A program made the translations under genes and the position numbers. Below, one piece after another: positions 8,480 through 15,366 of a DNA stretch of 34,231 bases (the stretch's first letter is position 1; every line of letters starts with the position of its first letter). The notes beneath the pieces were generated by a model, which worked only from the letters and a program-made list of their open reading frames with translations, was not told where the DNA came from and searched no databases. The stretch comes from Gallionellales bacterium GWA2_60_142 (GTDB lineage Bacteria > Pseudomonadota > Gammaproteobacteria > Burkholderiales > Gallionellaceae), in the NCBI GenBank assembly GCA_001801085.1, contig MGWR01000046.1, positions 1 through 34,231 of the forward strand, written 5' to 3'.

Positions 8480-8633
8480 CCCCCCTTTGAAAAAGGGGGG
8501 CAGGGGGGGATTTAGGTGCAGAGGTAAATCCCTGCGTTGCAAAATCCCCCTGATGGAACTACTAGCCATTCGACTAGGCCGACAAAATACGTCAGCCAAG
8601 TCGCTGGTTATCGGTCCCTCTTTCCAAAGAGGG
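8480..8633. repeat. Composite palindromic repeat, interrupted by a 60-bp element
   Basis: The repeat starts with CCCCCC-TTTGAAAAA-GGGGGG (8480-8500), passes through GGGGGGATTTA and TAAATCCC arms, and ends with CCCTCTTT-CC-AAAGAGGG (8616-8633). It is the same family as 10591-10675. In that copy the words AAATCCCCCT and a following CCAGTCCCCC are adjacent; here they are split by 60 bases (8552-8611). Confidence 0.8.
8552..8611. mobile_element. 60-bp hairpin element, copy A
   Basis: The 60 bases from GATGGAACTACTAGCCATT to CGCTGGTTAT are about 83% identical to 15294-15353, and both copies sit right after CCCCCT inside a palindromic repeat. The core is an imperfect hairpin: CGACTAGGCCGAC (8571-8583), a seven-base loop, GTCAGCCAAGTCG (8591-8603). 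It has no coding capacity beyond a chance peptide. It may be a non-autonomous mobile hairpin. The exact edge is uncertain by one T. Confidence 0.7.
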
Positions 8634-8696
8634 AAGTGGTTACGCGGCGCTCGTCGTCAGAGATTAAGTGAGCAATTCAACCGAAGGAGAAACACC

Positions 8697-9158
8697 ATGA
8701 ACCAGGCAGTCGCAGCAGACCCGTTGTTGTCCACCGATTTCATCCAGGAGATGGTCAAGCAGATGCGCGCCATCGACAGTTACGGCACTTACGACGGCTG
8801 GCCGGTGGAACGCATCCTCGCGCCGTATGTGGTGACCAAGGAACAGCGCCGCGAGATGCCGGTGATCGGCGATCCGGACGAGATCCTGCTGGCGCGCATC
8901 AAGGCGTTCTACAACGCCATCGCCTCGCTGATCGAGAAGGAATGCGGCCAGATGGCCGTGCCCATGATTAACATCACCCACGAAGGTTTCGGCCGCGCGG
9001 TCATCACCGTCGGCAAGCTGGTAGTGATGGACAAGACCCTGCGCGACGTGCACCGCTACGGTTATGAAACCTTGTCGAAGATGAAGGACGAGGCGGACAA
9101 GGTGTTGTCGGTCGCGCTGTCCAGTGTCAGCAAGTATCCCGAAGTCGCGGGAATGTAG
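8697..9158 (+). CDS. NifX-associated nitrogen fixation protein (DUF269)
   Basis: A 153-residue protein starting MNQAVAADPLLSTDFIQEMV after a clear AAGGAG site. The sequence QMRAIDSYGTYDGWPVERIL and the later HEGFGRAVITVGKLVVMDKTLRDVHRYGY are the DUF269 signature. In many diazotrophs this gene follows nifX (orf5 in Azotobacter vinelandii) and it is thought to help FeMo-co maturation. The reading frame is open further upstream (from 8220), but that stretch is the rseC shadow and the repeat, so the start at 8697 is preferred. Confidence 0.93.
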   Translation: MNQAVAADPLLSTDFIQEMVKQMRAIDSYGTYDGWPVERILAPYVVTKEQRREMPVIGDPDEILLARIKAFYNAIASLIEKECGQMAVPMINITHEGFGRAVITVGKLVVMDKTLRDVHRYGYETLSKMKDEADKVLSVALSSVSKYPEVAGM

Positions 9159-9255
9159 TCACTAGTCGTAAGACGTAAGTCGTAAGTTGAAACCCGCGTA
9201 GCGGACAACGCCAACTAACAACTTGCGTCTTCAAACTAAAAGCTGGAGTAAGCAC

Positions 9256-9474
9256 ATGACCGAAGAAGAACTGAAGAGTCTCGACAAGGAAGTAAAGAAG
9301 CTCAAGCGCATCGCCACGGAGTGGGCGGGACAGATGCACGACCTGGTCGAGGAGCGGCTGCCTGCCGGATACAAAGAGATTCCCGGCATCGCGCAATCAA
9401 CTTATGACGCTTGCCAGGCCTGGGCCGAGGCGAACGCGAAACTGGTTGCGGCACAGAAAGAGATTCAAAGCTGA
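9256..9474 (+). CDS. CCE_0567-family (DUF683) small metalloprotein
   Basis: A 72-residue all-helical protein, MTEEELKSLDKEVKKLKRIA..., with a GGAG site at 9245-9248. The length, the coiled-coil-like Lys-rich first helix, the ATEWAGQMHDLVEERLP centre and the IAQSTYDACQAW second helix fit the DUF683 family. That family follows DUF269 in nif operons and a cyanobacterial member (CCE_0567) was reported as a small metal-binding helical protein. The precise function is unknown. Confidence 0.88.
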   Translation: MTEEELKSLDKEVKKLKRIATEWAGQMHDLVEERLPAGYKEIPGIAQSTYDACQAWAEANAKLVAAQKEIQS

Positions 9475-9483
9475 GTACGAACT

Positions 9484-9556
9484 TGTAGGAGCGGCTTCAG
9501 CCGCGATAGGCAGAGTCGCGCATAGCGCAGCAATCGCGGCTGAAGCCGCTCCTACA
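9484..9556. repeat. REP-like inverted repeat, 24-bp perfect arms
   Basis: The arms at 9484-9507 and 9533-9556 (TGTAGGAGCGGCTTCAGCCG... and its exact complement) enclose 25 bases. This word is a very common extragenic palindrome in Pseudomonas and relatives. It fills the gap before fdxB. Confidence 0.9.
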
Positions 9557-9593
9557 GAATGTTGCAGATTTTTTATAGATGACAGGAAATGAC

Positions 9594-9884
9594 ATGGCTA
9601 ACATCACCGGAACCACCCGAGGCGGCAGGCCTTACGAACCCACTTTCGTCACCGAACTGAACGCGGCCAACTGCATCGGCTGCGGCCGCTGCTACAAGGT
9701 CTGCCCGCGCACCGTGTTCGAGCTGGTCGAACGTAGCGAGGACGACGAGAACTACGACGAAGACGAAGACAACAGCATGGTGATGACACTCACCAACGCG
9801 CTGGACTGCATCGGTTGCGGCTCCTGCGGCCGCGTCTGCCCCAAGCAGTGCCACACCCATCAACCCATGCCTGCGGGAGCCTGA
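9594..9884 (+). CDS. fdxB: Nif-specific ferredoxin III (FdxB), 2x[4Fe-4S]
   Basis: A 96-residue ferredoxin; ATG at 9594 is chosen because AGGAAA lies seven bases before it (an ATG at 9579 would add MTGND). The first cluster motif is C27-x2-C30-x2-C33-x3-C37-P and the second C72-x2-C75-x2-C78-x3-C82-P. Between them is an acidic stretch around residues 49-60 (EDDENYDEDEDN), typical of this nif-linked ferredoxin. It probably supplies electrons for FeMo-co assembly or nitrogenase. Confidence 0.94.
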   Translation: MANITGTTRGGRPYEPTFVTELNAANCIGCGRCYKVCPRTVFELVERSEDDENYDEDEDNSMVMTLTNALDCIGCGSCGRVCPKQCHTHQPMPAGA

Positions 9885-13823: not shown

Positions 13824-13951
13824 TGGGCTTGGGCTGGTTGATTAGAGTGCCATTGAGGTCAGCTTCGAATTCGCTTGCTACAGAAACTCGCAAGTTCACA
13901 TAGACAAGTAAGTCTTCTCGTAACCAACTTCATCAGGCTTCCAGCCGCGTG

Positions 13952-14281
13952 TCACTGGCCGAAGGCCGCGCTCAAATTTTCAGAGACGAACTCCGCCCTT
14001 GAGGTGGAGTTGTTCTCCTGTCCGTGTGACGCGCACCAGGCGGAGAGCTCCTCGGGGACGATCAGGCATTCGATCGCGCGCACGCCGGAGCGCTGGAATT
14101 CGCTGCGGGCTTTGATCGCTACGGCTTTCCATTTTTCGAAGCTGTCCTCGAAGCATTCCGGGTCGGTCGCCGAGGCTTTCACTTGCGCCCAGGTTTCTTC
14201 GTTGTACCAGGTGAGGCCGATGATGAGTGCCTGGCTGCGCTTCTTGGCTTTCAGGCGTTGCGAGAGTGTCGGTTTTCTCAT
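13952..14281 (-). CDS. Unknown protein at the end of the rnf-nifF-cowN operon
   Basis: A 109-residue protein read from ATG 14281 (an ATG at 14308 would add nine residues with no better ribosome-binding site). The start is very basic (MRKPTLSQRLKAKKRSQ), then LIIGLTWYNEETWAQVKA and a helical WKAVAIKARSEFQRSG. Only two cysteines and no cofactor motif are present. It is transcribed in the same direction as cowN, 80 bases further on, so it is likely the last gene of that operon. The family is not recognised. Confidence 0.62.
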   Translation of the reverse strand: MRKPTLSQRLKAKKRSQALIIGLTWYNEETWAQVKASATDPECFEDSFEKWKAVAIKARSEFQRSGVRAIECLIVPEELSAWCASHGQENNSTSRAEFVSENLSAAFGQ

Positions 14282-14361
14282 GGTCTTTAGTATGTGTGTC
14301 AAAAACATGCGATGCGGTTTTTATTGCGCATAGCCATCTATCGAGATTGCTGATGCAGGCG

Positions 14362-14664
14362 TCAGCAGCACTCCTCTTCAAGATTAAATAATAGTGCCAG
14401 CGCATCTTCGTCGGCGAGTTTCTCGAATAGTTCTCGTATCTGGTTGATGTGACTATGCACCAGAAAGAGGTCATCCGGCGCAGGGCCGCTACTTGGGGTG
14501 CGTTTGCTCATGAAATATTCCCAGAACGGTTCTGGTTGGCCGGATTCGGCCAGATGCTTATCGATCAGTTCTATCACGCGACGAGCGTTGCCGTCGCAAT
14601 CGATGCCGATGAAGCTAACGTAGCGGTCGGTTTGCTTCTGGCAATCGCAATCTTTTTTTGTCAT
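14362..14664 (-). CDS. cowN: CowN, protects nitrogenase from carbon monoxide
   Basis: A 100-residue protein with the CowN signature TDRYVSFIGIDCDGNARRVI near the start, PFWEYFMSKR in the middle and DDLFLVHSHINQIRELFE followed by LLFNLEEECC at the end. CowN sustains N2-dependent growth when CO is present. An extra N-terminal CDCQK segment (residues 6-10) gives two more cysteines. It starts 16 bases after the nifF stop, so it is in the same transcript. Confidence 0.95.
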   Translation of the reverse strand: MTKKDCDCQKQTDRYVSFIGIDCDGNARRVIELIDKHLAESGQPEPFWEYFMSKRTPSSGPAPDDLFLVHSHINQIRELFEKLADEDALALLFNLEEECC

Positions 14665-14680
14665 CGTTTTGTGCGCTGCA

Positions 14681-15223
14681 TTAAAGATGTAACCCGAACT
14701 CGGGCGCGATCAGTTTCAGCCAGGCATCCACTCGCGCGTCGGTGAGCAGTTTCTGGTTCTCGTGATCCAGCGCGAGGCCAACGAACTCTCCGTCCACCAG
14801 CGCCTTGGAGGCGATGAAGGCGTAGTCGTCGGCAGGCCAGAAGCCGGCTAACTTCGCGCCTCTGGCTTTGAAAAAATCATGGAGTATGCCTATCGCATCG
14901 ACGAACTCGTCCGGGTATTTGTCCTGGTTGCCGAGGCCGAATAACGCGATGGTTTTGCCGGTGAAATCGATATGCTCGATCTTGGGCAGGAATTCTTCCC
15001 ATCCGCCGCCCATGCAGTCGGTGGAGAGTCCCGGCAGCGCGCCCGCACCCAGCGTGGAAGTGCCGAGGATGAGGTGGCTGTAGCTCGCGAACAGTTCCGG
15101 CGTGGCCTTGTTGACGTTGAGCGCGTCGGCCATGGTGTCGTCGTGAAAACGCTTCTTGATGGCCTTGGCGATGCGCCTCGTGTTGCCGGTGCTGCTGGCG
15201 AAAAAGAGTCCTATGCGTGCCAT
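14681..15223 (-). CDS. nifF: NifF, nitrogenase flavodoxin
   Basis: A 180-residue long-chain flavodoxin. The FMN phosphate loop is [14 protein letters not shown] (residues 7-20). The loops [14 protein letters not shown] and [16 protein letters not shown] bind the isoalloxazine ring. The insertion typical of long-chain flavodoxins is present ([21 protein letters not shown]). NifF passes electrons to the Fe protein NifH. Here it lies downstream of rnf, which suits a pathway Rnf to flavodoxin/ferredoxin to NifH. Confidence 0.95.
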
Positions 15224-15265
15224 GTGTTTATCTCGAATATGGGGATGGGGGTAGAGTTGTGAGCG

Positions 15266-15366
15266 TTTCTACCCCCTCCTTAACCCTCCCCCTGATGAAG
15301 CTACTAGCCATTCGACTAAGCTGGCAAATAACGCCAACTAAGTCGCTGGTTATGCAAGGGGGAGGG
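15266..15366. repeat. Palindromic repeat before nifF, interrupted by the 60-bp element
   Basis: It begins TTTCTACCCCCTCC, then CCCTCCCCC (15284-15292), and closes with GGGGGAGGG (15358-15366). In the uninterrupted family member at 6002-6024 only TTGCA separates the two arms. Here 60 extra bases lie between them. Confidence 0.82.
15294..15353. mobile_element. 60-bp hairpin element, copy B
   Basis: It is homologous to 8552-8611 and identical in length. The hairpin arms are CGACTAAGCTGGC (15313-15325) and GCCAACTAAGTCG (15333-15345), with a seven-base loop. Compared with copy A, two stem positions changed on both arms (G-C to A-T and A-T to G-C), so pairing is kept. Confidence 0.72.

Follow-up and report, generated by a model that had tools for sequence, protein, structure and literature searches.

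How does a short hairpin come to lie inside two unrelated palindromic repeats of one bacterial contig? The question is raised by contig MGWR01000046.1 of Gallionellales bacterium GWA2_60_142, whose positions 1 to 34,231 are the whole stretch of DNA analysed here (the window). A first-pass annotation had pointed to two segments of exactly 60 bases, about 83% identical, each set right after CCCCCT in a palindromic repeat, and had proposed a mobile, structure-guided unit. Both segments are found there, identical at 50 of 60 positions, and the length holds; the best boundary lies one base further to the left, at 8551-8610 and 15293-15352. They are copies of a real, mobile and structure-conserved miniature element that forms a dispersed family in iron-oxidising bacteria and is inserted as one exact unit, in most cases between C and T, with no duplication of the target.

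The layout of this element (type 1) is a tail, TGATGRAACNAC, followed by TAGCCA TT CGACT A, an apical stem-loop and A AGTCG C TGGTTA. The hairpin comprises 18 pairs and is bulged, and the ends of the unit read TGATG on the left and GGTTA on the right. Within the window its parts are placed as follows.

8551..8610, plus strand: type-1 element, copy 1, 60 nt; 12-nt tail TGATGGAACTAC at 8551-8562, hairpin at 8563-8610
15293..15352, plus strand: type-1 element, copy 2, 60 nt; tail at 15293-15304, hairpin at 15305-15352
8563..8568, plus strand: 5' arm of the outer helix, TAGCCA; its partner is TGGTTA at 8605-8610
8571..8583, plus strand: 5' arms of the middle and apical helices (CGACT A GGCCGAC); partner at 8591-8603, loop at 8584-8590

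The 13-base arms with a seven-base loop described before are present as part of the full 18-pair hairpin, whose outer 6-bp helix TAGCCA/TGGTTA had been overlooked. Likewise, the paired changes at the seventh (G-C to A-T) and twelfth (A-T to G-C) positions are seen, but pairs 9 and 10 have changed as well, with one copy mismatched, so that not all differences are compensatory. The suggestion that the fold itself is selected is upheld by the further copies, and the hairpin structure is conserved through covariation. An alignment of 25 copies that was not fitted to a model has 9 of the 18 pairs altered on both sides, a value as high as which occurred in 0 of 500 shuffles. When 75 distinct sequences from other loci were aligned by fitting them to a covariance model, 11 of the 18 pairs were altered on both sides and 96.1% of cells were paired, against at most 41.4% in slid versions. 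Within the genus the outer and middle helices are almost fixed and the apical stem is free to vary; beyond it the outer helix differs in its letters yet keeps its pairing (for example TAAGC/GCTTA and CAGCCA/TGGCTG), which places the right end of the unit at the 3' foot of a hairpin preceded by the 12-nt tail. At two of the loci collected (L numbers; genomes have G numbers), L163:3858-3969 and L078:8924-9011, the apical region of the copy contains an unrelated insert, which in L163 holds the inverted repeat GTGGTTG...CAACCAC.

A search of the organism's own assembly with copy 1 returned 36 matches at E <= 0.01, with a best non-self E of 7.4e-32, so the likeness of the two window copies is not a matter of chance. 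The covariance-model search that the first-pass annotation had recommended found many further copies in the host genome and its relatives. Model R1, built from 25 of the 28 type-1 copies of the host genome, gives 43 matches there, counting together type 1 and a second type discussed below. Under stricter filters, and with the host genome included in every sample, matches are found in 59 of 61 genomes sampled from the genus (0 to 93 per genome; 89 candidates were scored per genome, and high counts may be lower bounds), in 28 of 399 genomes and 13 of 158 genera sampled from the order, and in 2 of 398 genomes sampled from the phylum, namely the host genome and one of its family. The closest named relatives, judged by NifN, are Gallionellaceae (Sideroxydans, Sideroxyarcus, Gallionella and Ferriphaselus). 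The plasmids searched gave no match. Three viral contigs have the pattern; the two scored by the model hold a full copy each, and the third, judged by eye, is without the right half. A known RNA was considered and rejected, as the Rfam search gave no match at gathering and four sub-threshold matches (E 0.25-9) were taken as chance. We found no description of the family in the literature, where our search was confined to open-licence papers.

Where exactly does the unit begin and end? Of 267 matches collected, 239 were distinct; 203 of these passed a filter (T at the start, TTA, CTA or TTG at the end, at least 40 bases on both sides and a length of at least 53) and 36 were dropped. The flanking step among the 203 copies is C|T in 167, T|T in 16, C|C in 9, T|C in 6, C|A in 3 and A|T in 2, and the left-flank base is a pyrimidine in 201. 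Lengths cluster at 60 nt (128 copies) and 54 nt (41), which together account for 169 of the 203; 13 copies measure 59, 8 measure 57, and another 13 have other lengths, four of them 87-117. Because T stands at both ends, the boundary is ambiguous in most copies, and 18 copies with a right-hand base other than T are able to separate the two possibilities. With one mismatch allowed and all collected loci pooled, the boundary running from T to A rebuilds more uninterrupted relatives in 11 of these 18 and fewer in 2, and neither boundary finds any in 5. The left junction is then C|T and the right junction A|T or A|C, and no target duplication is seen at the rejoined sites.

Uninterrupted counterparts of the host repeats exist both in the window and at orthologous places in relatives. 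The features concerned, for which no strand is given, are these.

8480..8550: host repeat to the left of copy 1, ending in AAATCCCCC; L096 and L107 have it at the orthologous place with no interruption
8611..8632: host repeat to the right of copy 1 (TCGGTCCCTCTTTCCAAAGAGG)
15284..15292: left arm of the host palindrome of copy 2 (CCCTCCCCC)
15353..15366: right part of the host palindrome of copy 2 (TGCAAGGGGGAGGG)
10591..10675: uninterrupted relative, within the window, of the first host repeat
6002..6024: relative of the second host palindrome that has no interruption
28223..28253: another relative of the second host palindrome, likewise uninterrupted

Copy 1 lies between a gene of the RseC/MucC family and a DUF269 gene. 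At the same place the repeat is free of the 60 bp in both L096 and L107 (AAATCCCCC|TCCATCCCCC in L096), and L104 is without this repeat and has another palindrome instead. At the position of copy 2, the sequence is unrelated in all four relatives compared, and no orthologous empty site was found among them. A second instructive place is the gene nifN. Neither repeat nor element is present there in the window, L090 has an in-frame repeat without the element, and L087, L089 and L104 have repeat and element at the same place. These three states give the order of events as gene, then repeat, then element. Ferriphaselus sp. R-1 likewise has a copy within its nifN frame (L082). The mobile unit with empty sites proposed at first is supported by exact orthologous empty sites at copy 1 and in nifN; the 60 bases are not a fixed part of these repeats, and their further copies do covary. 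The window's own NifN (6127-7638, 503 aa) has a C-terminal extension that, from its translation read by eye, seems to come from a different dispersed repeat, one of the GTTCGACAAGCTCAGG type.

These comparisons also bear on the idea that the hairpin has no mobility of its own and is inherited within larger repeats, which would spread as composites. Composites do recur together with their flanks: AAAAACTAC-element-TGCGGTGGTCATCTGCGG is found repeatedly in G064, and paired copies occur in G068 (L159). The G064 composite, read at L173, L218, L219, L222, L231 and L235, has the form (A/G)AAAACTAC-element-TGCGGTGG..., and its recurrence suggests that some copies spread along with their flanks. As a general explanation composite inheritance is already refuted by the many unrelated host repeats, the orthologous empty sites, the self-insertions and the gene insertions, and we find it hardly credible.

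The targets themselves are diverse. Host sites include CCCTCCCCC|TGCAAGGGGG, GGATTCCGGCC|TGCGCCGGAATGACGG, GTGGGAGCGGCTT|(T/C)AGCCGCGAT, GAGCC|TGTCGAAG, repeats reading as CGTC-type (CCGTCAT|TCCGGC...) and AATCTGTGTAATC|TGCGGA, the last of which is not palindromic. Ten of the 203 copies, as counted with a single search pattern, sit inside another copy at AC|TAGCC. The earlier claim of palindromes targeted in two backgrounds holds in that many hosts are palindromic repeats; what the targets have in common, however, is the C|T step (167/203), and other hosts are non-palindromic sequences, genes or the element itself. Rejoined sites (191 distinct) fold at a mean of -8.2 kcal/mol compared with -7.8 for 1000 random C|T sites, and 27 of them (14.1% versus 10%) fall in the strongest control decile. 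The junction lies within a predicted stem at 81 of the 191, against 314 of the 1000 controls (p = 0.004). A preference for palindromes as such is therefore weak, a small effect and no rule. Repeat targeting is strong in G007: at least three uninterrupted relatives exist for 24 of 44 sites, compared with 28 of 400 controls (p = 7e-14); 11 of these 24 read as self-insertions, and the remainder, 13 of 33, still differs (p = 1e-6). The corresponding enrichment in G064 is not significant (4/16 vs 62/400, p = 0.30).

Genes form a further class of target. We examined 195 distinct sites with enough flank for an open frame of at least 80 codons on both sides. Sense frame A of the element (P-DGTTSHST...QVAGY) is open at 29 of them and the other open sense frame (MELLAIRL...AKSLV) at 4; antisense frames are open at 14 and 1, which may be spurious in GC-rich DNA. 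With the element removed, the sense-frame counts are 28, 6 and 1, so the host frame already favours phase A. Ten recognisable-looking open reading frames were chosen from 33 listed for a family search, and nine match NCBIfam families at E <= 1e-25, one not. Six score above the curated cut-off: MutS, cysteine-tRNA ligase (where the family match ends ahead of the insert), formamidopyrimidine-DNA glycosylase, pyruvate dehydrogenase E2, ComEC and the TIGR00275 flavoprotein. MurF, whose frame is cut by the locus end, a MoeA-type protein and a transporter stay below the cut-off of the best full-length model. Genes with the element in frame include mutS, murF, fpg and aceF. A cassette of 20 or 18 codons that lies in frame in proteins such as MutS, MurF and formamidopyrimidine-DNA glycosylase, predominantly in one of the two open sense frames (29 against 4), represents a natural source of new protein linkers. 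On a contig from IMG/VR whose genes, judged by eye, are phage tail-like, a copy is placed between two frames and its TGA serves as the stop of the first. At L211:5596-5656, on a phage-like contig, the copy stands exactly at a stop codon and, by reading, gives a TGA stop and an overlapping ATG. At L252:12943-13003 a copy is in frame within a gene that we take to be a uracil-DNA glycosylase.

By what means does the element move? We lean, by a little, towards a non-autonomous mobile element, composed of a 12-nt 5' tail and a bulged hairpin, that is moved as a single strand by an HUH endonuclease. Such an enzyme (Y1, of the TnpAREP or IS200 type), which may act in trans, would recognise the folded top strand when single-stranded and cut it at C|T on the left end and, by the hairpin foot, at A|T (or A|C). 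The released strand would be joined into another C|T site on single-stranded DNA, and of the insertions into genes those that keep a frame open would survive, in most cases the hydrophilic frame (PDGTTSHST...QVAGY). We take this as the best explanation because TnpAREP has been mapped to cleave and join DNA at C|T, a position described as 'abutted to the T of the C|T cleavage sites' in an excerpt of PMC8266576. Also relevant is the strand: in 56 of 90 cases (p = 0.026) the type-1 top strand coincides with the lagging-strand template. Fork direction was here taken from GC skew, the sign of which agreed with the replichore in all 21 stretches compared in a closed genome. One complete genome gives 18/24 (p = 0.023), or 17/22 without two copies reading as type 2, and G007 alone gives 27/49.

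Several observations weigh against this mechanism. The strand lean is weak, with 6/15 for the named loci and 2/7 for type 2, and inseparable from gene direction (38/61 for both). The kind of partner that the first-pass annotation had advised looking for, a transposase associated with repetitive extragenic palindromic (REP) sequences, was not found: the element gave 0 matches as a border repeat in 33 Y1 loci, and in 16 further loci of REP-associated tyrosine transposases (RAYTs), which share some genes with the former set, no RAYT is bordered by the element as its own repeat. The only match in these 16 is inside a GTAG repeat beside a frame-broken RAYT, and a copy in L252, about 170 bp from a RAYT frame, is likewise within a GTAG repeat; in both cases the REP serves as a target. 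G066 (99% complete) and G022 and G070 (83%) have no Y1 or RAYT gene by PF01797 or a RAYT-specific model; in the complete genome G064 PF01797 finds no Y1, and the RAYT-specific model finds one gene, broken in frame. The GTAG tag is absent from the element, and the guide-pairing rules of IS200/REP systems (IS608, REPtron Mb), applied by hand, predict the targets of the two tail types inconsistently. A search with RAYT seeds in other loci gave 4 places; the one in L252, near 12800, has the sequence of a glycosylase by reading, which means that the seeds were not all specific to RAYTs. At L298 (G064:C1:191000-191900) a RAYT gene broken into more than one frame lies near GTAG...ATGGGTTGAGCGCAGCGATACCCATC repeats, one of which contains a type-2 copy.

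The same element might instead be moved as double-stranded or RNA-guided DNA by a recombinase, for instance one of IS110/IS1111 or a tyrosine recombinase, with a liking for CT cores in repeats. IS110-type elements use a CT core, which is repeated at both junctions, and target REPs; an integron attC site is cut inside its stem. The junctions observed, C|T on the left and A|T on the right, differ from this IS110 rule, and the unit ends at the hairpin foot, unlike an attC cut. No IS110 match was found in the high-copy genomes G064, G007 and G073, nor in G066. We therefore consider this route quite improbable, even with IS110 genes in 10 of 16 genomes tested and bridge-RNA guidance of IS110-type elements described in excerpts of PMC11208160 and PMC11187229.

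Spread as RNA, in which a structured RNA would enter transcripts or DNA and a reverse transcriptase would make the copy, would agree with the covarying fold and with a sense lean relative to genes (49/74 in tandem gene gaps). This lean is confounded with replication and open-frame selection, Rfam gave no match, and RVT_1 is without a match in 10 of the 16 genomes, including the many-copy G064, G007, G073, G022, G070, G016, G082 and G027, all of which makes the RNA route very improbable. Both IS110 and reverse-transcriptase genes are absent from several high-copy genomes. Overall, mobilisation in trans by an HUH enzyme is the interpretation that we favour, by a small margin.

A variant of single-strand movement is raised by the second type of element, in which another tail, near GC(T/G)TTGCA, precedes the same hairpin. 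Thirteen of 15 readable type-2 copies, their boundary set by eye, are at purine|purine steps (G|A, A|G or A|A), with L173 (A|T) and L010 (C|A) as exceptions, and at least two copies lie in the apical loop of type-1 copies (L248 and L256). It is conceivable, if rather unlikely, that the element is tail-directed, one hairpin body being combined with different 5' tails and the tail setting the target. On that model TGATGRAACNAC would lead to pyrimidine|pyrimidine steps, mostly C|T, and the short GC(T/G)TTGCA tail to purine|purine steps. Should this hold, we would be dealing with a minimal mobile DNA that can be re-targeted, stands apart from the GTAG/RAYT system and depends on an unrecognised enzyme for its movement.

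Other candidates for the mobiliser were tried and rejected. A larger autonomous element with split ends was sought through 256 left-half matches in 2,716,210 bases of the collected loci; 12 distinct matches are without a right half within 160 bases. At L256, right halves do occur about 3 kb on, as parts of other copies, and the intervening genes are not transposases (by eye, chemotaxis-receptor-like and binding-protein-like). A recurrent neighbour gene was dismissed as well: the largest cluster (11 loci, with aceF, fpg and a flavoprotein among its members) is, by reading, chained through peptides of the element and of host repeats, and none of 10 neighbour-gene clusters inspected by eye is transposase-like.

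Besides nifN, the window contains adjacent genes for NifL (TIGR02938) and NifA (TIGR01817) at 21548-24608. A SagB-family peptide dehydrogenase domain (TIGR03605, 83.7 bits, cut-off 78.4) is encoded at 11015-12589 of this nif-bearing window.

How does the element compare with known systems? Like miniature inverted-repeat transposable elements (MITEs) and the miniatures of IS200/IS605, it is non-autonomous and dispersed, and IS200/IS605 elements also insert without target duplication. It differs from this group in that its ends, TGATG and GGTTA, are not terminal inverted repeats and that a single hairpin takes the place of a left and a right hairpin; the target-site duplication of MITEs is not seen either. 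Unlike in IS110/IS1111, as their rule is generally given, a CT core is not kept at both junctions, the right one being A|T or A|C; unlike integron attC sites, for which the general rule is an R' box with cleavage inside the stem, the element ends at the hairpin foot. Rickettsia palindromic elements (RPEs), compared by description, share palindromic units in frame within genes (PMC3733652, in excerpt) and differ in their hosts and from the exact C|T insertion seen here. The CGTC-tagged repeats also form hairpins and, according to PMC3733652, have no transposase gene associated with them, whereas our element has no CGTC tag at either end of the 25 aligned copies. GTAG REPs and their TnpAREP (REPtrons) resemble it in the short bulged hairpin, the many copies and the intergenic and intragenic positions; its insertion junction (C|T in 167/203 copies) is the step at which the TnpAREP cut is mapped in the excerpt of PMC8266576, and some REP families also lie inside palindromes according to the part of PMC3733652 available. 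In contrast to GTAG REPs, the foot of the element reads ACTAG, with C for the first G, invariant in 25/25 aligned copies; it has a conserved 12-nt tail, a length of 54-60 nt, and borders no RAYT in the loci examined. By its anatomy, and with the GTAG and RAYT features absent, it looks like a new variety of the smallest bacterial mobile DNA of the REP/RPE kind. The mechanisms of REP-type dissemination are called poorly understood in the excerpt of PMC8266576. Exact empty and filled sites, the C|T rule, a chronology of repeat upon repeat in one gene and 0 to 93 matches per genome make the question testable, and the element thus offers a handle on how REP-type hairpins spread.

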